Below the pieces are notes generated by a model, which saw nothing but the letters and a program-made list of their open reading frames with translations, had not been told where the DNA came from and did not search any database. A DNA stretch of 32,383 bases, taken from the IMG/VR virus record IMGVR_UViG_3300037264_003406, positions 1 through 32,383 of that record; one strand, given 5' to 3'. The stretch comes from a virus. Positions 25,381 to 32,382 of the stretch are shown in pieces (the first letter of the stretch is position 1; every line of letters starts with the position of its first letter). The position numbers and the translations under genes are program-made.

Positions 25381-25572
25381 ATGCCTGAAACACACGCACC
25401 TGCCGAGTACGCTGCCCCCCGGTCATTCCGCCTGGATGACGCATCGCTTTCAATTCTACGACAGCTATCCAAGAAGCTGTCCATATCCCAAGCCGACGTT
25501 GTTCGTCTCGCGTTACGTCGGTTGGGCGAAGCTGAGAAAGTGAAAAACAAGCCGCTTGCAACCGTTGCGTAG
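25381..25572 (+). CDS. Ribbon-helix-helix DNA-binding protein
   Basis: 63 residues. 'RSFRLDDASLSILRQLSKKLSISQADVVRLALRRLGE' (in part) has the ribbon-helix-helix layout: an N-terminal strand (RSFRLDD), helix A with Leu spacing, a turn 'LSISQADVVR', and helix B. This is typical of CopG/Arc-like repressors of about 45-70 residues, which bind DNA as dimers through the strand. It is monocistronic with its own promoter, as for a regulator. Predicted to be made from a leaderless mRNA. Its targets cannot be read from the sequence; the two similar promoters nearby are candidates. Confidence 0.65.
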   Translation: MPETHAPAEYAAPRSFRLDDASLSILRQLSKKLSISQADVVRLALRRLGEAEKVKNKPLATVA

Positions 25573-25624: not shown

Positions 25625-25653
25625 TTGCGTAATTTTTTGTAGTGCGGTACGAT
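25625..25653 (+). promoter_or_regulatory. Leaderless promoter for sspB-like gene
   Basis: TTGCGT (25625-25630), 17-base spacer (A/T-rich start AATTTTTTG), TACGAT (25648-25653), then six bases (GTACAA) and ATG 25660. The layout is identical to the RHH promoter (TTGC.T-17-TAC..T-6-ATG). No Shine-Dalgarno is visible. This decides the start codon: the GTG at 25642 lies upstream of the expected transcript start. Confidence 0.6.
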
Positions 25654-25659
25654 GTACAA

Positions 25660-26118
25660 ATGAGCTACGGAAAACATCGACTCACTGTGTTATCAAAAGC
25701 CACCTACTTCAAGGCACTGCTAGCCCGTGATCACATGTGCATGGTGCATGTGGACACGAACCACAAAGACGTTGAGGTCCCTGACGTATTCAAAGGCCGC
25801 CCACGCATCGCACTTGGGTTTGCCGACTTCGGGAAGAACCCACTCAAAAATCTGTCTGTTCACCACAGCGGCATCCAAGCGACGCTCGCATTCAACCCTA
25901 TGCTTGTAGGCGAAAGCAACACCTACTACGATTGCAGCCTGCCATGGGCATCCATCTTCTGCATCGTTGAAGTCGGCGGTGAAGGGCTGTTCTGGGCAGA
26001 AGATGCTCCACCTGAAATCGCTAACGAGTACACGGCCATCACCGAAGTGACGGACCCTTCCGGAAACGTTAAACTAGCTGTCATCATAGGAAACGACCCC
26101 ACACCCTCAGACGCCTAA
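25660..26118 (+). CDS. SspB-like ClpXP protease adaptor
   Basis: 152 residues from ATG 25660. The body follows SspB layout: helix 'LSKATYFKALLA', strand 'CMVHVDTNHKDVEVPDVFKGRPRIALGFADFG' (in part), 'NLSVHHSGIQATLAFN', then 'CSLPWASIFCIVEVGGEGLFWAEDAPPE', which matches 'v..P...v.aIya...g.g..f.e' of SspB and the variant family in Myxococcota-type bacteria. SspB tethers ssrA-tagged and other substrates to ClpXP. The E. coli C-terminal ClpX-binding motif (ALRVVK-type) is not obvious in this short tail. First gene of an operon with an RRM protein; a free ClpX-type zinc domain is encoded nearby on the other strand. Fold assignment good; activity inferred. Confidence 0.72.
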   Translation: MSYGKHRLTVLSKATYFKALLARDHMCMVHVDTNHKDVEVPDVFKGRPRIALGFADFGKNPLKNLSVHHSGIQATLAFNPMLVGESNTYYDCSLPWASIFCIVEVGGEGLFWAEDAPPEIANEYTAITEVTDPSGNVKLAVIIGNDPTPSDA

Positions 26119-26540
26119 TGCAATCTCTATTCGTCGGCAACATCCCATACCAAGCAACCGAAGCTGAATTGGAGGCTATGTTCCTCCAGTTTGGATTTAA
26201 ACCACGGTCCGTTCGGATCATCCAAGACAGAGAAACCGGTCAGTCCCGCGGATTCGGTTTCGTGGAACTAGCGGATGACACAGAGCGTAACCGCGCCAAG
26301 ACACTGCTAGACGGACAGCTACTCAACGGACGCTCCCTAGCCATCCGAGACGCTGACTCCAAACCGCCAAGCTCACGTGGCCGTGACGGGGGCAGCGGAG
26401 GCCCACAGCAAGCGTTGCAGAACTCTGCGCCACCGCCAGACCCAAGACACAATGACAGCGGGTACGGGCACGGGGAGCGTAAAGAACACAAAGGGCGAAG
26501 TCGGCGCAGACGCGACGACGACAGCGGCGAACACTGGTAG
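26118..26540 (+). CDS. Single-RRM RNA-binding protein
   Basis: 140 residues, ATG overlapping the SspB-like stop by one base. Residues 1-78 form a complete RNA recognition motif: RNP2 LFVGNI (residues 4-9) and RNP1 RGFGFVEL (44-51) with the correct aromatic residues Phe5, Phe46 and Phe48, plus 'ATEAELEAMFLQFG' and 'AKTLLDGQLLNGRSLAI'. The C-terminal ~60 residues are Gly/Ser/Pro then Arg/Lys-rich (RGRDGGSGG; KEHKGRSRRRRDDD), as in bacterial cold-shock RRM proteins. It should bind single-stranded RNA. The gene directly downstream has a hairpin over its start codon, a possible target. RRM proteins are known in bacteria but rare in phages. Confidence 0.88.
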   Translation: MQSLFVGNIPYQATEAELEAMFLQFGFKPRSVRIIQDRETGQSRGFGFVELADDTERNRAKTLLDGQLLNGRSLAIRDADSKPPSSRGRDGGSGGPQQALQNSAPPPDPRHNDSGYGHGERKEHKGRSRRRRDDDSGEHW

Positions 26541-26566
26541 CTACAACCCGGCTGCGATAACCTACC

Positions 26567-26584
26567 CACGGGAGGTTTCCCGTG
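26567..26584 (+). promoter_or_regulatory. Hairpin sequestering RBS and GTG start
   Basis: CACGGGA (26567-26573) pairs perfectly over seven base pairs with TCCCGTG (26578-26584) around a GGTT loop. The stem and loop contain the GGGAGG Shine-Dalgarno (26570-26575) and the 3' strand ends with the GTG start codon (26582-26584). In the folded state both signals are hidden, so translation would need opening by ribosomes, temperature or a protein. Confidence 0.6.
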
Positions 26585-27085
26585 AAACATTTACGCCTCG
26601 CGTTATTGCACCTAGCGTGCGTCGGCCCCAATGCCCTTGCAGCCCTGATTCTCGCGTTTGTCATGGTCATGTGGGGGCAGCAAACCCATGTCATCAAAGG
26701 CGTGGCGTTTGTGGAACTAGACCCAGATTCCTGGCTGGCACGGGGACCCTACAAGATGTGGGGTGGAACAACCTTTGGCCCGCACGGGGTCATGGTCAAC
26801 TATGCCCAACTGGGTGTCGCAGATCATGAGTTGGTCCACACAGAACAAATGCAAGCGGAGGCAGTACAGAACATCGTGCTGACTGCGCTCATGTCGCTCA
26901 CTACAGGCTTCGGCACTGCCACGCTCATCTGCGTCCTCTGGTGGGTCTTAAGCCCATTGACAGCCTTAACAGCAGCGAATCTGACGGCCCTGCTGCGTGG
27001 CGAAAAAGGCTACCTTGGGTCACACTTTGAAGAAGGTGCACGTGCCCACGACCACGAAGAACACAAGGAACCCAATGGACGCTGA
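26582..27085 (+). CDS. Membrane protein with HELVH metallopeptidase-like motif
   Basis: 167 residues from GTG 26582 (GGAGG six bases upstream). A first transmembrane helix spans about residues 5-32, a second about 98-125. Between them lies 'GVADHELVHTEQMQAEA' with HELVH at 82-86, a match to HExxH zinc-peptidase motifs; 'YLGSHFEEGARAHDHEEH' near 144-161 could give the third ligand (Glu150/151). The arrangement 'HE.vH..Q....' then a membrane segment then '.Y...FE..A' is one I associate with a family of small bacterial membrane proteins of unknown function. Role could be in lysis, envelope modification or superinfection control; not demonstrated. Overlaps the next gene by 11 bases. Confidence 0.6.
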   Translation: MKHLRLALLHLACVGPNALAALILAFVMVMWGQQTHVIKGVAFVELDPDSWLARGPYKMWGGTTFGPHGVMVNYAQLGVADHELVHTEQMQAEAVQNIVLTALMSLTTGFGTATLICVLWWVLSPLTALTAANLTALLRGEKGYLGSHFEEGARAHDHEEHKEPNGR

Positions 27086-27638
27086 TCGACGCAATAAGCT
27101 AACCACCGCGCTGAAAATCATCGGCGCCGTCGCAGGCATCCTCGGCGCATCAGGGGGTAGCTACATACAAGCCCGGTCAGAGTCACGACAGGATGCAGAC
27201 ATCACGTACCAAACCCTCCGAACACAGGTCACAAATCTGGAGGAAGCGACAGCGTACCTGATTGCAGAGTTGGACATCCTGAAAGCCCGAGAAATTCTCA
27301 AAGAGCACGACCTCCCGCCAGAAACCATGGCTGAACTGGAAAAACTTCTCGGTGTAGCTGGAACAGAACCGTTCCAACCAAGGCCAGCAGAGCCTACTGG
27401 GCGGCGTTTGTCTCGGCGTGCTGGTGGTGGCGGTGAACGTGCGCCGCAAGAAGGCCCTGCCGCGGAAGCCGAACCTGAAACAGCGGCGCTGATTGAAGCC
27501 GCAACTGTGCAACTCAGGCAGGCGTACGACGCCAAGAATCGCGTTTCTAAACCCGATTGGTTGGATGAATCCAATAAAATGCCGGAGCTTCCCGCCACAC
27601 TTGACGAAGCTGCGCAGCAACGCATTTGGACAAAATAA
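27075..27638 (+). CDS. Membrane-anchored coiled-coil protein, spanin-like layout
   Basis: 187 residues starting at ATG 27075 (AAGGA seven bases upstream); the longer version from 26997 lies within the previous gene and lacks an RBS. One N-terminal transmembrane helix (about residues 11-30, 'LKIIGAVAGILGASGG'), then a coiled coil (about 40-85, 'TLRTQVTNLEEATAYLIAELDILKAREIL' in part), a Pro/Gly/Glu-rich linker and a helical tail. This N-in membrane anchor with periplasmic coiled coil is like an inner-membrane spanin, but no outer-membrane lipoprotein partner or endolysin is visible in the window, so the lysis role is only a suggestion. Other options are a holin regulator or a scaffold. Confidence 0.5.
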   Translation: MDADRRNKLTTALKIIGAVAGILGASGGSYIQARSESRQDADITYQTLRTQVTNLEEATAYLIAELDILKAREILKEHDLPPETMAELEKLLGVAGTEPFQPRPAEPTGRRLSRRAGGGGERAPQEGPAAEAEPETAALIEAATVQLRQAYDAKNRVSKPDWLDESNKMPELPATLDEAAQQRIWTK

Positions 27639-27667
27639 AGAATAAGCCTGCGAAGGAAAAGCAACAT

Positions 27668-27979
27668 ATGGAAGCGGTGTTGGAGTACGCCGCTGAGTAT
27701 CAGATTGCGCACCAACGCGTTGGGTTCCAAAGCGAGTTCGTGCTGAACAAGCGGGACGATGGGGCGTGGTGTCTTGAGGCGCGGAGCACAGTGCACAAGC
27801 TGCGGATCTGTATGTCGTGCCTCTGCTTCGAGCTGACAGCGTACCCGCTCGTTGAACAACGGGTCACAACAGATCTCTCAGAGCGCCACACCTACGGTCT
27901 GTTCTGCCCCTCATGCGCGAACCACATAGCGAAGGCTAGCGCCCAGTGGGCCACATACGTTCGGTGTACTGCGAACTAA
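27668..27979 (+). CDS. Zinc-ribbon-like protein (CxxC...CPxC)
   Basis: 103 residues from ATG 27668 with AGGA about ten bases upstream; a TTG at 27626 is a less likely alternative. Four cysteines in two pairs, Cys48-x2-Cys51 ('ICMSC') and Cys80-x2-Cys83 ('FCPSC'), with 'RHTYGLFCPSCANHIAK', recall the 'iC..Ckkir......yi......shGiCp.Ca..' domain that often accompanies bacterial signalling proteins. It probably binds zinc. Last gene of the plus-strand operon; its TAA overlaps the TAG of the convergent minus-strand gene (shared CTAA at 27976-27979). Biochemical role unknown. Confidence 0.55.
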   Translation: MEAVLEYAAEYQIAHQRVGFQSEFVLNKRDDGAWCLEARSTVHKLRICMSCLCFELTAYPLVEQRVTTDLSERHTYGLFCPSCANHIAKASAQWATYVRCTAN

Positions 27980-28317
27980 ACAAACGGATTCTTCTTCAAC
28001 ATCTCTAGCTCAAACACGTAGAAGACATTTGTGTTCGGTAGCTGAGACGGAACTTGCGCAACGCCAAAATCGATTCGGCCCAGTAGGCCGCCTAGCTCCT
28101 CGTGTGTCTGCGACGTTCCGCGTAGCAGGATGATGCGACGATTTGAGGACTTTGTGATCGACTCGTCTACAACAACCAGGCGCAAATTGCTCGCGCTGGT
28201 CATGAACACTTCCACGAAGAAAGCGTTTTCTGGCGCGGTGAAGCTAAGGATCTCGCCCTCAACACCTACGATGGTGAGGTCGATCGTCTGAAAGTCCATT
28301 CGCTGTCTGATCGGCAC
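27976..28317 (-). CDS. Hypothetical protein downstream of tRNA-Ile
   Basis: 113 residues from GTG 28317. The GGAGGA that serves as Shine-Dalgarno is the 3' end of the tRNA-Ile acceptor stem, five bases upstream, which supports this start over the ATG at 28299. The sequence ('MDFQTIDLTIVGVEGEILSFTAPENAFFVEVFM' in part, later 'RRIILLRGTSQTHEELGGLLGRIDFGV') is a mixed alpha/beta protein with no recognised motif. It is the last gene of the HNH operon and its expression may depend on whether the tRNA has been cut out of the transcript. Function unknown. Confidence 0.55.
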   Translation of the reverse strand: MPIRQRMDFQTIDLTIVGVEGEILSFTAPENAFFVEVFMTSASNLRLVVVDESITKSSNRRIILLRGTSQTHEELGGLLGRIDFGVAQVPSQLPNTNVFYVFELEMLKKNPFV

Positions 28318-28321
28318 ATGG

Positions 28322-28394
28322 TCCTCCGGGTAGGAATTGAACCTAACATCGTGCGCTTATAAAGCACCAGCTTTGACCACTAAGCTACCGGAGG
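28322..28394 (-). tRNA. tRNA-Ile(TAT)
   Basis: 73 nt. Acceptor CCTCCGG pairs perfectly with CCGGAGG, A73, T8-A9, D-stem GCTT/AAGC, anticodon loop TTTATAA gives TAT at 34-36 (reads ATA), T-arm TTAGG-TTCAATT-CCTAC. The DNA after A73 reads CCA, so the 3' end is encoded, unlike the other tRNAs here. T8-A9-G10 supplies the TAG stop of the upstream zinc gene, and its 3' acceptor strand supplies the RBS of the downstream gene. Confidence 0.85.
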
Positions 28395-28570
28395 ATTCGT
28401 CTCTTCTGCAACATTGCAACTAAGTCAGGGTTGGCTTGTTGGGTGGCAGCCCACCATGCCTGTTCTGCGCATTGCAAACAGATACGTATCTCAGGCTTGT
28501 CGGCCCGAGCTACGTGGGGGTTCGAGTCAGTGTCTACCCCTTCGCAGAAAAGACACGGTGAGCCAGCCAT
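28385..28570 (-). CDS. Small protein with ClpX-type zinc-binding domain
   Basis: 61 residues from ATG 28570, which follows the HNH stop by one base (TAG-G-ATG); a longer version from 28621 overlaps HNH by 50 bases. Residues 6-34 hold Cys6-x2-Cys9-x21-Cys31-x2-Cys34 with 'ICLQCAEQA', like the ClpX N-terminal zinc-binding domain ('CSFC'...'ICDEC'; usual inner spacing about 18). In ClpX this domain dimerises and docks SspB and substrates. A free domain could act as decoy or dominant partner for ClpX adaptors; generic zinc-ribbon is the alternative. Its stop codon TAG lies inside tRNA-Ile. The phage also encodes an SspB-like protein. Confidence 0.6.
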   Translation of the reverse strand: MAGSPCLFCEGVDTDSNPHVARADKPEIRICLQCAEQAWWAATQQANPDLVAMLQKRRILR

Positions 28571-28571
28571 C

Positions 28572-29099
28572 CTAGCGATCCAGCGAGCCTGTCCAATAAG
28601 GCGCCCACTCTGGAGGGACATCCCCTGTTCGCATGGTCACAGTTATGGTTGGGAGAAAAGCTGGCTTTACTGGCTGGGACAGGAGCTTGAGCCCCGCCTG
28701 TTGTGGAGTCTGGTTGGCCTTCAGGTGGTTGCACTCAATGCATGAGCACACCACGTTCTCCCATGTTGTCTTCCCACCCTGTGCCCGTGGAATGACATGG
28801 TCCAAGTTCAGCTCTTCCGAGAAGAACTTGTTCCCACAGTATTGGCAACGGAACTTGTCCCGTGTGTAGATGTTCAAGCGTGAGAACTTCAATCGGATAC
28901 GTTTCCGATCAAACTTCGTGAGGACACGGACAACCGAAGGCAAAGGGTAGTCCATTGTGACACCGCGGATCGTGCGGTCACGGCTGTACTCTACGACCTG
29001 AACCTTCTTGTTGAAGAGGTCTGTAATGGCGCGTTGCCAACCTTCTACACGTAGAGGTCGCCACTCCGCATCGAGAAATAGAACTGCCGTTGTCATCAT
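28572..29099 (-). CDS. HNH endonuclease
   Basis: 175 residues (ATGATG at 29099/29096). A zinc-bound HNH core is plain: Cys85-x2-Cys88 ('CQYCGN'), 'LNLDHVIPRAQGGKTTWENVV' (Asp100-His101, Trp113, Asn115) and Cys120-x2-Cys123-Asn-His125 ('CIECNHLKAN'). The N-terminal ~70 residues ('AVLFLDAEWRPLRVEGWQRAITDLF') match the helper domain of the bacterial 'HNH endonuclease family' proteins. It may be a homing nuclease or a host-DNA or packaging-related nuclease. First gene of a minus-strand operon with its own promoter and with the ClpX-type zinc gene directly after its stop. Confidence 0.9.
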   Translation of the reverse strand: MMTTAVLFLDAEWRPLRVEGWQRAITDLFNKKVQVVEYSRDRTIRGVTMDYPLPSVVRVLTKFDRKRIRLKFSRLNIYTRDKFRCQYCGNKFFSEELNLDHVIPRAQGGKTTWENVVCSCIECNHLKANQTPQQAGLKLLSQPVKPAFLPTITVTMRTGDVPPEWAPYWTGSLDR

Positions 29100-29112
29100 A
29101 GCCCCGTTCTTT

Positions 29113-29141
29113 GTTGTAGTTTAATTCCGCTACACAGTCAA
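29113..29141 (-). promoter_or_regulatory. Promoter for HNH operon
   Basis: On the minus strand TTGACT (29141-29136) and TACAAC (29118-29113) are 17 bases apart. The predicted start lies about six bases before the ATG at 29099, so the leader is very short. It is placed between the tRNA-cluster hairpin and the HNH gene. Confidence 0.5.
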
Positions 29142-29156
29142 GTGTGCAAAGATAAC

Positions 29157-29183
29157 GCCCCCGGTTGCGTGCGGTGCGGGGGC
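29157..29183 (-). terminator. GC hairpin ending the tRNA-Leu cluster transcript
   Basis: GCCCCCG (29157-29163) and CGGGGGC (29177-29183) pair perfectly, loop of 13. On the minus strand it is followed by GTTATCTTT, a poor U-tract. It lies 34 bases after the last tRNA and just upstream of the HNH promoter, the expected place of a terminator. Confidence 0.5.
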
Positions 29184-29216
29184 AACGGACCGGAACTACA
29201 TGCACGCTGGCCATTG

Positions 29217-29291
29217 TCCTTGCGGCGGGATTCGAACCCGCACTGCCTCGTTTTTGAAACGAGGGCCTCTTCCAAGTTGGGCTACGCAAGG
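29217..29291 (-). tRNA. tRNA with Leu anticodon CAA, short variable loop
   Basis: 75 nt. Acceptor CCTTGCG/CGCAAGG perfect, T8-A9, D-arm GCC/GGC, anticodon stem CTCGT/ACGAG with loop TTCAAAA (anticodon CAA, reads TTG), five-base variable loop GCAGT, T-arm GCGGG-TTCGAAT-CCCGC, A73. No long variable arm, which bacterial tRNA-Leu normally has. Confidence 0.85.
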
Positions 29292-29294
29292 TTG

Positions 29295-29369
29295 TACCGA
29301 GAGAGGGATTCGAACCCACACTGTCTCCGTTCTAAGCGGAGTGTCTCCTTCCAATTGGACTATCTCGGC
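29295..29369 (-). tRNA. tRNA with Leu anticodon TAG, short variable loop
   Basis: 75 nt. Acceptor GCCGAGA/TCTCGGT (G1-U72 wobble), T8-A9, D-arm GTC/GAC, anticodon stem CTCCG/CGGAG with loop CTTAGAA (anticodon TAG, reads CTA), variable ACAGT, A73. Not an amber suppressor (that would be CTA). Class I variable loop, although the anticodon is leucine. Confidence 0.83.
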
Positions 29370-29371
29370 AA

Positions 29372-29445
29372 TAGCACCGATGAGATTCGAACTCACACTG
29401 GACACGTTCTTAGCGTGCTCCCTCTTCCAGTTGGGGTACGGTGCC
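29372..29445 (-). tRNA. tRNA with Leu anticodon AAG, short variable loop
   Basis: 74 nt. Acceptor GGCACCG/CGGTGCT (G1-U72 wobble), T8-A9, D-arm CCC/GGG, anticodon stem GCACG/CGTGT with loop CTAAGAA (anticodon AAG, reads CTT), variable TCCAGT-like short loop, T-arm GTGAG-TTCGAAT-CTCAT, A73. A34 in a leucine tRNA is rare in bacteria. Confidence 0.83.
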
Positions 29446-29454
29446 AAATTACAG

Positions 29455-29528
29455 TGGGCCTGGTGGGATTCGAACCCACAACATTCTGGGTTTAAGTCAG
29501 ACGCGTCTGCCGATTGCGCCACAGGCCC
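29455..29528 (-). tRNA. tRNA with Leu anticodon TAA, short variable loop
   Basis: 74 nt. Acceptor GGGCCTG/CAGGCCC perfect, T8-G9, D-arm GCGC/GCGT, anticodon stem TCTGA/CCAGA (A31-C39 mismatch), loop CTTAAAC (anticodon TAA, reads TTA), short variable loop, T-arm GTGGG-TTCGAAT-CCCAC, A73. Begins five bases after the methyltransferase stop. Confidence 0.83.
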
Positions 29529-29533
29529 GAAAA

Positions 29534-30142
29534 TCAAACTCTAACGTACCAGTCAGTCTGACCAGTTGTCTCAAACTTACCGTGGAAGACTTGATCCAGG
29601 GCAGCGTAAATCCCCGGATGCTCAACGAACTGACCGTCAACGATACCCGCGCGTTTTCCAGCTAGTAAACCGCCAGGCTTAACCCGCCGACGCCAAACTT
29701 CAATCTCATGAACTACATGTTCTGTTGCGTGCGTGTTGTCCAAGAAAACAAGGTCTAGCGACCCGAGACCAAACACACCTGCAACTTGAGGTGAGGACGC
29801 CTGCATAACATGATGTTTGTCTGCGCCATGCGGGCGCCCCCTACGAAAGAACTCGAAGGTATCTCGGAAGCTACTAACGCTTGTTCGCGGAGGATGCTTA
29901 GCTACATGTTGCTGGATAATCAAACGAGCTGCTTGGCTCAAACGTGATTCGTCGAAAGCGTCCAACATCCACAACTGAATGTCTTTTCCCGACGCTTCGA
30001 TCATCTTCGCAATGCCCTGCGACGCACTGCCGAAAAGAACACCCGCCTCAACAAACGTCGCGTGGTTTGGTGCCTGGTCGACTGCTAGCTGAAAAAACTT
30101 TGGGCAGCTATACCACCCCGGTATTCCGTCAACAATTACCAT
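29534..30142 (-). CDS. Class I SAM-dependent methyltransferase
   Basis: 202 residues. 'HATFVEAGVLFGSASQGIAKMIEASGKDIQLWMLDAF' (in part) gives motif I (E-A-G-x-x-x-G-x-x) with acidic Asp in 'LDAF' that would bind the SAM ribose; 'LDLVFLDNTHATEHVVHEIEVWRRRVKPGGLLAG' (in part) is the 'DlvfiDg.H.ye.v..Di..W...lkpGG...G' block of the Methyltransf_24 type. Substrate cannot be read: sugar, small-molecule and protein methyltransferases share the fold. It leads into the four-tRNA cluster on the same strand. Upstream TATGTT sits five bases before the ATG, so a leaderless mRNA is possible but the -35 is weak. Confidence 0.78.
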   Translation of the reverse strand: MVIVDGIPGWYSCPKFFQLAVDQAPNHATFVEAGVLFGSASQGIAKMIEASGKDIQLWMLDAFDESRLSQAARLIIQQHVAKHPPRTSVSSFRDTFEFFRRGRPHGADKHHVMQASSPQVAGVFGLGSLDLVFLDNTHATEHVVHEIEVWRRRVKPGGLLAGKRAGIVDGQFVEHPGIYAALDQVFHGKFETTGQTDWYVRV

Positions 30143-30160
30143 GTTTCAACATACCATACG

Positions 30161-30189
30161 TGGTCAATACCGTAGTTCTGTTGTAGTGT
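30161..30189 (+). promoter_or_regulatory. Leaderless promoter candidate for DUF3467 gene
   Basis: TGGTCA (30161-30166), 17-base spacer, TAGTGT (30184-30189), then CCCAAC and ATG 30196. The -10 box ends six bases before the ATG, the same geometry as two promoters near 25.4-25.7 kb, although the -35 is weaker (four of six). It lies in the 53-base gap of a divergent gene pair. Confidence 0.4.
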
Positions 30190-30195
30190 CCCAAC

Positions 30196-30489
30196 ATGGA
30201 ACAGAAGATCAACCTAACCATACCGGAAGAACAAAAGCTTGGACGCTTTGTGAACCTGGTGTTCATTAATCACAGCGCCGACATGTTCACCGTTGACATG
30301 GTGTACGTTCAAGGCGCCTTGAGCAACACTCACATACAGGAAGCCGTCACCATCAGTCGTTCGCATATCACGCCTGGACATGCGAAACGACTCGTCGCAG
30401 CCCTGCAGAAGAACATTGATGGTTACGAAGAACGTTTCGGAAAGATCGATCCGGGAACACCGGTCGTTATCCTACCGAACGCCAATTAG
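30196..30489 (+). CDS. DUF3467 family protein
   Basis: 97 residues. The sequence 'LGRFVNLVFINHSADMFTVDMVYVQGAL' (in part), then 'TISRSHITPGHAKRLVAALQKNIDGYEERFGKI' (in part) has the DUF3467 pattern: 'N...i.hs..eF..DF......' followed by 'ri..sp.haKrL...L..nl..YE..fG.i'. The family is small, cytoplasmic and of unknown function. It is monocistronic, plus-strand among minus-strand genes, with a promoter placed for a leaderless mRNA. Phage copies may contribute to takeover of host processes, but nothing here shows how. Confidence 0.7.
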   Translation: MEQKINLTIPEEQKLGRFVNLVFINHSADMFTVDMVYVQGALSNTHIQEAVTISRSHITPGHAKRLVAALQKNIDGYEERFGKIDPGTPVVILPNAN

Positions 30490-30549
30490 TACAGGTGGAG
30501 GGCGTTGTGTCCACGGCGGGTTTTGATTTCCGTCAGACGACACCCGCGT

Positions 30550-30933
30550 TTAGGTTTGTAGAAACTTTTGTACCGCAGCCACAACTTTCCTGCACGTTGC
30601 TACATCGAACCGCCCAATGTGGCAAGCATCGCGAGGGAGCGCAAGCTGTTGCTGTAGCCACCGATAAGCTGCGCCCCGCGTAGGTACGTGTTTGTCCGTC
30701 CAAAGTATGTCGAACGCGTTGTGTGCGGCAATGCGCGCTTGCCTGGTTGCTTCATCTGCTGGCACACCTAGCGGGTCGCCGTTTAAGTGTGCGCCATGAC
30801 GGCAATCGCATGTCGGTCTGTCGCAGACATAGAACTTCTTGTCTTGCGTTGACATCAAAACCATAACGTCCCCACATTGTGGGCACGGTATGGTGCGGTC
30901 ACGATGCACCTGGAGTGTTAATAGCTTTGCCAT
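30550..30933 (-). CDS. DUF3268-type zinc-finger protein
   Basis: 127 residues from ATG 30933; upstream in-frame codons lie inside tRNA and are not a credible start. 'CPQCGDVMVLM' (Cys17, Cys20) and 'VCDRPTCDCRHGAH' (Cys37, Cys42) form the zinc finger; 'DPLGVPADEATRQARIAAHNAFDILW' (in part), then 'RGAAYRWLQQQL', 'DACHIGRFDVATCRKVV' match the zinc-finger-containing DUF3268 family ('plG..ad..lr..R..aH..fD.lw', 'a..HIG.fd...C..v'). The start lies only two bases after tRNA(CAT), with no Shine-Dalgarno; RNase cleavage at the tRNA 3' end would leave CAATG, almost leaderless. Function unknown. Confidence 0.75.
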   Translation of the reverse strand: MAKLLTLQVHRDRTIPCPQCGDVMVLMSTQDKKFYVCDRPTCDCRHGAHLNGDPLGVPADEATRQARIAAHNAFDILWTDKHVPTRGAAYRWLQQQLALPRDACHIGRFDVATCRKVVAAVQKFLQT

Positions 30934-30935
30934 TG

Positions 30936-31004
30936 TACCGACACTCGGAATCGAACCGAGCAAACCTGGCGTATGAAACCTGATCGTGACCCAGCACTGT
31001 CGGC
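30936..31004 (-). tRNA. tRNA with anticodon CAT, compact D-arm
   Basis: 69 nt. Acceptor GCCGACA/TGTCGGT (G1-U72 wobble), anticodon stem CAGGT/GCCAG with an A-A mismatch and loop TTCATAC (CAT), T-arm CTCGG-TTCGATT-CCGAG, A73. The D-arm is short: GTG-CTGGGT-CAC directly after the acceptor, without the usual U8-A9. Could be Met or Ile2-like. A zinc-protein gene begins two bases downstream. Confidence 0.7.
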
Positions 31005-31009
31005 GAAAG

Positions 31010-31080
31010 TGCTCCCGGAGAGAATCGAACTCCCAGCTCCGTGTTTCGTAGACACAGGTCCCAAATCCATGGGCGAGAGC
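31010..31080 (-). tRNA. tRNA-Arg(ACG), compact D-arm
   Basis: 71 nt. Acceptor GCTCTCG/CGGGAGC (one wobble), D-arm CCC-ATGGATTT-GGG immediately after the acceptor, anticodon stem TGTGT/ACACG with loop CTACGAA (ACG, reads CGT), T-arm GGGAG-TTCGATT-CTCTC, A73. Its T-arm region shares a 21-base identical stretch with the neighbouring Arg(TCG) gene, suggesting duplication. Confidence 0.75.
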
Positions 31081-31099
31081 AAACAACTATGTAATCAAG

Positions 31100-31169
31100 T
31101 ACCCCCGGAGAGAATCGAACTCCCGTCACCAACGTTCGAAGCGTCGGCACCAGGTCCACTGGCGAGGGC
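31100..31169 (-). tRNA. tRNA-Arg(TCG), compact D-arm
   Basis: 70 nt. Acceptor GCCCTCG/CGGGGGT, D-arm CCA-GTGGACC-TGG directly after the acceptor, anticodon stem CGACG/CGTTG with loop CTTCGAA (TCG, reads CGA), T-arm GGGAG-TTCGATT-CTCTC, A73. No U8/A9 linker; the anticodon stem can extend past position 27-43 (C26-G44 and a wobble). Confidence 0.73.
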
Positions 31170-31173
31170 AAAG

Positions 31174-31242
31174 TGCGCCCGGAAGGAATCGAACCCTCAA
31201 CGGCTGGCTTAGAAGACCTGCCTGGCATCCATGCCCGAGCGC
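31174..31242 (-). tRNA. tRNA-Arg(TCT), compact D-arm
   Basis: 69 nt. Acceptor GCGCTCG/CGGGCGC (one wobble), D-arm GGC-ATGGAT-GCC directly after the acceptor, anticodon stem CAGGT/GCCAG (A-A mismatch) that can extend to GGCAGGT/GCCAGCC, loop CTTCTAA (TCT, reads AGA), T-arm GAGGG-TTCGATT-CCTTC, A73. Confidence 0.73.
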
Positions 31243-31246
31243 ATTA

Positions 31247-31270
31247 GTAGATCCGGGTGGCGGAATCTAC
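31247..31270 (-). other. Hairpin between tRNA-Glu(TTC) and tRNA-Arg(TCT)
   Basis: GTAGATCCG (31247-31255) pairs with CGGAATCTAC (31261-31270) with one bulged A and a GGTGG loop (plus-strand reading). It is strong, has no U-tract, and lies in an 86-base spacer between tRNA genes. It may be an RNA-processing signal for the tRNA transcript, or the remnant of a lost tRNA; it cannot be folded into a complete cloverleaf. Confidence 0.4.
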
Positions 31271-31328
31271 AACCTTCTGTCATGCACAGCCACCATTGCT
31301 CCACAGTTCCTAGCCTGCAGAACGCTTG

Positions 31329-31402
31329 TGACCCCAGCGGGATTTGAACCCGCATCTCCAGCTTGAAAGGCTAGAAATCCTAAACCATTAGACGATGGGG
31401 TC
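31329..31402 (-). tRNA. tRNA-Glu(TTC)
   Basis: 74 nt. Acceptor GACCCCA/TGGGGTC perfect, anticodon stem CTAGC/GCTGG (one wobble) with loop CTTTCAA (TTC, reads GAA), T-arm GCGGG-TTCAAAT-CCCGC, A73. The D-arm 'CGTCTAATGGTTTAGGAT' is the classic tRNA-Glu arrangement, so this tRNA, unlike its downstream neighbours, is canonical. Confidence 0.9.
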
Positions 31403-31600
31403 ATAATAAAAGTTGCTCATCTAGGCCGCCCAGCCACCAGAGCGTCGTGAAAATCTCATAGCTGACTCGATAAGGACCGTAGGACCTTACGGCGCCAGTG
31501 GTAGAACTCAAGGGAAGCCATGACACCTCCCTCGCAAACACCCACTGTCACGATCTTGCGAAGAACAAACACCGAGCTTACGTCATGCCTAAATGAGCAG
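31403..31600. other. 198-base tRNA spacer without a recognised gene
   Basis: I find no open frame with an RBS and no cloverleaf here on either strand. It contains short repeats (GGACC twice at 31475-31490) but no strong hairpin. It may hold a degenerate tRNA or a processing site. Confidence 0.3.
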
Positions 31601-31674
31601 CGTTCCTGATGGGATTTGAACCCACGTTTTCGCCTTGAGAGGGCGACGGCCTAGGCCGACTAGCCGACAGGAAC
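31601..31674 (-). tRNA. tRNA-Glu(CTC)
   Basis: 74 nt. Acceptor GTTCCTG/CAGGAAC perfect, T8-C9, D-arm GGC/GCC, anticodon stem TCGCC/GGCGA with loop CTCTCAA (CTC, reads GAG), T-arm GTGGG-TTCAAAT-CCCAT, G73. First tRNA after the sulfotransferase gene on this strand. Confidence 0.88.
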
Positions 31675-31743: not shown

Positions 31744-32382
31744 TCAATCCGCAACCTTATACCCAAGCATCGACAGTTCCGGTTGAACCACAGCCTGAAA
31801 GGCGTGTAGCAACTCCGAAGACCAGTGATGCCAACGTCCAATAGGGTTGAAATTCCCGTGCATACGCACAGGTTTCCAATGCAACTCATGGCCATCACGG
31901 ATCAAGTCAGATGACCCGTGTATCGGGTAGGCCATGATGCCTGGCCAATTGACGTTGTTCATCCAGTCCATTCGCAGTTGAGTGAAGACAGACTGCATTG
32001 TGTTTGTTCTGTTACGCACGAGTTGTTCATACTGAACACGAACAGCGTTTGGGTGTGTCTCTAGAAATGCAAACATCCGCTGAACCCCAGCCTTCCAATC
32101 TTCCGCCACAGTCATGTAAGGGCGCGCAAAACTCAAATGAGCGGACACCGCTACATCTCTAGGATCACGATAAATTATTACGACCTTGGCGCCAGGGAAC
32201 AGCTTGTCCAGGTTCTCCAATCCAACAGTACTTGGCGTTTTAGCTAACACGTATGCACCGTGTTCTTTTCGGGTACAGCCCTCCCAAAGATAGTCTTCCA
32301 GGGCGAACCCGAGCGTCCGTAACGTCTCAGACTCAGGCAACCATGTTTGTTTCCCATGATTGATACCCGAAGCGAACTTAAC
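31744..32382 (-). CDS. Sulfotransferase domain protein, 5' partial
   Basis: The frame stays open to the right edge of the window, so the N terminus is missing; the TTG at 32340 is internal. About 212 residues are visible. 'LAKTPSTVGLENLDKLFPGAKVVIIYRDPRDVAVSAHLSF' (in part) is the sulfotransferase 3'-PAPS-binding region: 'kthlP..lLP....akiIYv.RdPrDvavS', with RDPRDVAVS the key part. 'WKAGVQRMFAFLETHPNAVRVQYEQLVRN' follows the 'v..vrYEdLv' pattern, and 'GRWHHWSSELLHAFQAVVQPELSMLGY' (in part) matches the 'G.W...f......f........lgY' C terminus. It transfers sulfate from PAPS to an unknown acceptor. The 5' PAPS loop lies off-window or near the edge. Confidence 0.83.
   Translation of the reverse strand, partial: VKFASGINHGKQTWLPESETLRTLGFALEDYLWEGCTRKEHGAYVLAKTPSTVGLENLDKLFPGAKVVIIYRDPRDVAVSAHLSFARPYMTVAEDWKAGVQRMFAFLETHPNAVRVQYEQLVRNRTNTMQSVFTQLRMDWMNNVNWPGIMAYPIHGSSDLIRDGHELHWKPVRMHGNFNPIGRWHHWSSELLHAFQAVVQPELSMLGYKVAD

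Follow-up and report, generated by a model that had tools for sequence, protein, structure and literature searches.

A strongly diverged SspB-family protein predicted in a contractile-tailed phage lacks the standard ClpX-docking tail

The window analysed here, a virus record 32,383 bases long and taken over its whole length, encodes at 25660–26118 a protein that is, as judged by profile comparison, a strongly diverged member of the SspB family, and its predicted C-terminus is without the standard ClpX-docking tail. SspB is the textbook example of an adaptor with divided tasks, in which the substrate is bound by the core and the protease by the tail. The C-terminal XB peptide of SspB binds the zinc domain of ClpX (PMC12373786), and the core and the tail are separable, whereupon degradation requires that they be rejoined (PMC8138137). 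In Pseudomonas SspB, the replacement of tail residues R128-K135 by alanine changed ClpX binding from 27 to 179 nM, which is about sevenfold weaker (PMC13251409). If the phage protein has kept the core and dropped the tail, it would provide a ready-made natural test of this two-part adaptor model. A phage SspB as such is known, having been described in Pseudomonas phage pf16 in 2017 (PMC5587285), and 75 records of the phage collection match E. coli SspB, part of them being bacterial contamination. What is new here is a diverged phage SspB lineage without the docking tail.

The window covers part of a contractile-tailed phage genome, with genes for the tail tube gp19, gp25 and baseplate J. No relatives were found when the baseplate protein was used as bait for related phages, and the tail sheath gave distant matches alone, to Streptomyces phages, with ~28% identity over half its length. 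The SspB gene and its neighbours are as follows.

25381..25572, plus strand: small ribbon-helix-helix protein, immediately 5′ of the SspB gene (match to Pfam RHH_1/RHH_3 at E 0.005, under the cut-off)
25660..26118, plus strand: SspB-family protein, 152 aa, whole gene (profiles, fold match, coding statistics)
25687..26004, plus strand: predicted SspB core domain, residues about 10–115 (alignment; AlphaFold2 on alignment A7)
26005..26115, plus strand: C-terminal tail of the SspB-family protein, residues 116–152 (tail comparison; low pLDDT)
26118..26540, plus strand: RRM RNA-binding protein (Pfam RRM_1, 60 bits; its start overlaps the SspB stop in TAATG)

The RRM protein appears from the gene overlap to be a co-translated neighbour of the SspB gene, and a functional tie to SspB would be conjecture. 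Its closest NCBIfam model is an RNA-binding regulator, at 77 bits and thus under the model's cut-off of 100. A promoter-like TACGAT lies 6 bases 5′ of the SspB start codon (25640–25660) and a ribosome-binding site is not clear; the SspB transcript is possibly leaderless.

The open reading frame (MSYGKHRLTV...PTPSDA) is coding according to codon statistics, with 0.21 bits per codon and negative values in the five other frames. In the Pfam scan, SspB (PF04386) was the sole family listed for it, at 12.1 bits (cut-off 27) and E 0.21, and the SspB equivalog model of NCBIfam was found at E 0.15. Single-model E values of 0.15–0.21 prove nothing for one among many open reading frames, and the SspB call made in the initial annotation is not obvious from such scans. 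A collection of SspBs was assembled from E. coli, six phages, IMG/VR contigs, enterobacterial genomes and 150 genomes of the phylum of Serratia, and its 168 sequences were reduced to 69 for an HMM that left the window sequence out. This HMM bore the call out, together with the guided fold match described below: the window protein scored 29.1 bits, with E 1e-8 over all window ORFs, and the runner-up ORF scored 4.4 bits. None of 5000 shuffles of the protein did as well, the best reaching 14.0 bits, and among the 3793 ORFs of the fetched loci no non-SspB fell in the 12–45 bit range of this HMM. An HMM of the closest bacterial SspB type alone gave the window protein 36.9 bits (E 4e-11), which overlaps the range of about 37–45 bits that this model assigns to true SspBs of other types among the matches listed. 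A model without the closest type gave just 10 bits, which explains the weak single-model scans. An hhalign comparison with 7 SspBs was collinear and weak (E 0.064), and the wider profile took its place. Diverged phage SspBs can therefore be said to escape single-model scans.

Structure prediction points the same way. Without an alignment, AlphaFold2 returned no usable model (pLDDT 34). Guided by alignment A7, which comprises 17 fetched SspBs, it gave an SspB fold with a mean pLDDT of 68, reaching about 80–89 in the blocks 10–50 and 90–110, whereas residues 116–152 mostly stayed under 50. The modelled core consists of one helix and six strands. When the A7 model was compared with the PDB using Foldseek, ranks 1–19 were all SspB and nothing else fell below E 0.8; the matches include the alpha-proteobacterial SspBs of Caulobacter and Agrobacterium, which are absent from the alignment. 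Since the alignment steers the model, the fold match supports an SspB fold of the core without being independent proof, and it remains tied to the homology. The core carries two insertions relative to other SspBs, one of 7 residues after F78 and one of 3 residues near residue 57. The substrate-side residue Arg73 (iLID numbering) is Ala in the window protein, and other bacterial SspBs are also without Arg73. Published work on R73Q in the SspB groove was set aside as evidence, its source being ambiguous about the direction of the effect.

The closest sequences belong to a divergent bacterial SspB type from the phylum of Serratia (L131, L133, L164, L168), with about 24% identity over 114 columns. 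This type is marked by RMPQPI and a C..P...IW pattern and shares with the window protein the core domain, C92, W112, V-x-VP and GLFW/GLMW. The window protein differs from it in the two core insertions, a short tail and the lack of an HLRVVK end. Alignment A5 contains 12 invariant columns, including V-x-VP, F78, C92, P95, G109 and W112. In a maximum-likelihood tree, the window protein stands beside the divergent bacterial type (support 97/78) and not beside other phage SspBs, on a very long branch of 4.9 changes per column that leaves its exact position unsure. It is like the proteins of pf16, the Agricanviruses, PA7 (Phikzvirus) and Xanthomonas phage LucasX in being an SspB family protein of a tailed-phage genome. 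However, the SspBs of pf16 and the Agricanviruses cluster together with the E. coli type, unlike the window protein, and those of PA7 and LucasX have long, unresolved branches. Because it lies away from the pf16 and Agricanvirus proteins, the window SspB looks like a separate phage uptake, suggesting that SspB was taken up by phages more than once, from different lineages. Close relatives were present in none of the phage records, plasmids, IMG/VR and species genomes, and no homologue of the protein's own lineage was found.

The most telling feature of the protein, overlooked by the initial annotation, is the absence of the canonical ClpX-docking tail. A K or R occurs within the last six residues of 167 of the 168 SspB homologues, the lone exception being the SspB of an insect symbiont (L082), while the window protein has none there. 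The basic ends are mostly xLRVVK or LDAFRKK, with KLTVIKGGKK in PA7. The C-terminal end of the window protein reads VKLAVIIGNDPTPSDA (last residues TPSDA); no basic ClpX-docking (XB) peptide follows a flexible linker, the end being KLAVIIGNDPTPSDA, and the tail terminates as SGNVKLAVIIGNDPTPSDA, with an inner LAVI at residues 139–142. This LAVI could be a remnant of a docking peptide or else of the V-I-[ED]-G linker motif of many SspBs. A basic tail of the docking type is retained by the SspBs of pf16, the Agricanviruses, SNUABM_54 and PA7, in contrast to the window SspB. Loss of the tail through a frameshift or an assembly break was considered and rejected. Since the SspB stop overlaps the start of the next gene in TAATG, the gene end is a true one and not an assembly break, and a search of all reading frames of the window found none that ends in an XB-like tail.

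The initial annotation had also proposed that a free ClpX N-domain-like zinc protein, encoded 2.3 kb away at 28385–28570, may act as a pair with SspB. The features that bear on this proposal are the following.

27626–27979, plus strand: another small protein bearing two CxxC motifs (weakly matching Zn_ribbon_RPB9, E 0.004)
28385..28570, minus strand: 61-aa CxxC-x21-CxxC zinc protein (sequence; ClpX profile negative)
28572..29099, minus strand: HNH endonuclease gene, lying upstream of the zinc protein gene as its partner (Pfam HNH_5, 54.8 bits)
28319–31674, minus strand: tRNA cluster of eight tRNA genes, including four tandem tRNA-Leu (CAA, TAG, AAG, TAA)

A 61-aa reading frame with the CxxC...CxxC motif does exist (MAGSPCLFCEGV...RICLQCAEQAW...KRRILR), but it runs on the minus strand from 28570 down to 28385, which had gone unstated; the plus strand is interrupted by stops there. 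Its likeness to ClpX did not hold. The spacing is CxxC-x21-CxxC, as opposed to CxxC-x18-CxxC in the collected ClpX domains, and Pfam gave no zf-C4_ClpX (PF06689) match at E<=1. Against a profile of 32 ClpX zinc domains the protein scored 1.1 bits, a value equalled or beaten by 757 of the 4973 cysteine-keeping shuffles scored. Its start lies 1 nt after the HNH stop (TAG-G-ATG), so that the two genes are translationally coupled, and its stop falls inside the 5′ end of the tRNA gene 28319–28394. Relatives of the HNH gene adjoin tRNA-Leu genes in Myxococcus phage Mx1 and virus Rctr197k. The coupling, the tRNA overlap and these relatives beside tRNA-Leu together place the zinc protein in an HNH-tRNA unit. 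Profile, spacing and gene context thus led us to reject it as a ClpX zinc domain. The gene that lies downstream of the HNH relative in Mx1 was also rejected as a homologue of the zinc protein, having no CxxC, and close relatives of the zinc protein were found in none of the phage records, plasmids, IMG/VR and species genomes. A further CxxC/CxxC protein (27626–27979) and a DUF3268 zinc protein are also encoded in the window, and zinc motifs are therefore not rare in it.

Genuine free ClpX-type zinc-domain proteins occur in Escherichia phage D6, PhiR44_2 and Pseudomonas phage PP9W2. These are small C4 proteins like that of the window; however, they share 56–77% identity with E. coli ClpX (tblastn), whereas the window protein gives no signal, and they are real candidates for a ClpX decoy. 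They measure about 65–110 aa (L202 612–932, L203 621–953, L206 292–489), and some are annotated as carboxylate-amine ligase or Clp protease. The jumbo phages Phosso, Atu_ph07 and Callisto (L201, L204, L205) carry genes with the zinc domain that are annotated as ClpX or Clp ATP-binding subunit. The expected co-occurrence with SspB did not appear in either direction. None of the six SspB phages has a ClpX zinc domain (E<=1), and none of the seven phages that encode either a ClpX-type zinc domain or a complete ClpX carries an SspB by Pfam and the window-type alignment, a search that can miss very diverged SspBs, since this alignment finds those of pf16 and LucasX but not that of PA7.

A takeover of ClpXP by the pair, in which SspB tails would bind the zinc protein as a decoy, is consequently very improbable. 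It would draw on the presence of both genes in one phage, on a local resemblance of the zinc protein to ClpX in the stretch P-x-[VI]-x-I-C-x-x-C, and on the existence of the free zinc-domain proteins in D6, PhiR44_2 and PP9W2. Against it stand the wrong spacing, the absent profile signal with so many shuffles as good, the location of the zinc gene in the HNH-tRNA unit on the other strand, the lack of co-occurrence in 13 phages, and a window SspB without a tail to dock on such a domain. An action of the phage on ClpXP could still be proposed from the SspB protein by itself. The reading that we tentatively prefer, at somewhat less than an even chance, is that the SspB core binds substrate peptides while docking to ClpX weakly or not at all, thus shielding the substrates. 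The protein would form a dimer like other SspBs, and its groove would bind short peptide degrons, which may be ssrA tags on rescued proteins or anti-sigma-factor peptides. Having no LRVVK-type peptide, it would have no hold on the ClpX zinc domain, and because it lacks this grip it would work as a competitor of the host adaptor, covering the degron without tethering it to ClpXP. Phage or regulatory proteins may thereby be shielded from degradation while the infection proceeds. The 61-aa zinc protein has no part in the scheme. That a phage has turned an adaptor into an anti-adaptor, with a tether-less SspB core protecting ssrA-tagged or regulatory proteins from ClpXP, we regard as rather unlikely when taken as a whole. 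If shielding is true, it would be a phage route to stop host proteolysis or tmRNA-linked quality control.

A close rival to shielding is delivery by a functional adaptor whose tail is host-specific. The phage SspB would bind chosen proteins and carry them to host ClpXP by way of a docking peptide around KLAVIIGND, either host-matched or degenerate, and would thus shift the host proteins that ClpXP degrades; it is a serious possibility, which we rate only a little below shielding. The SspBs of pf16, Agricanvirus AH06 and Ea35-70, and pEa_SNUABM_54 keep an LxVVK-type tail, so that phages seem commonly to use SspB for delivery, and the pf16 authors argue that their SspB redirects RseA/RpoE regulation (PMC5587285). 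Tails also vary between SspB groups (LRVVK, LDAFRKK, KLTVIKGGKK), and the inner LAVI resembles the hydrophobic part of LRVVK, which makes a non-standard docking peptide possible. However, the basic end of nearly all homologues is missing, the LAVI stretch is followed by nine residues, none of them K or R, and a four-residue L-x-hydrophobic-hydrophobic pattern is easily met by chance, occurring also at residue 8 of the window SspB. An SspB fold put to some other use, for example RNA or protein binding with the co-translated RRM protein and without a tie to ClpXP, appears improbable. The very long branch, the two core insertions, the missing docking tail and the overlap of the SspB stop with the RRM gene start are consistent with it, but the core pattern residues of the closest bacterial type, seen in the 12 invariant columns of A5, have been kept.

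Two further genes were noted, and no tmRNA gene was found.

29534–30142: Methyltransf_24 gene
31744–32340, minus strand: sulfotransferase-family gene, an unusual phage cargo (Sulfotransfer_3, 62.8 bits)

The tRNA gene at 28319–28394 (minus strand), into which the zinc protein gene runs, is called by ARAGORN as tRNA-Tyr(ATA), an odd anticodon. With a one-base shift of the anticodon stem, the TTTATAA loop would have TAT as its anticodon (Ile, AUA codon).
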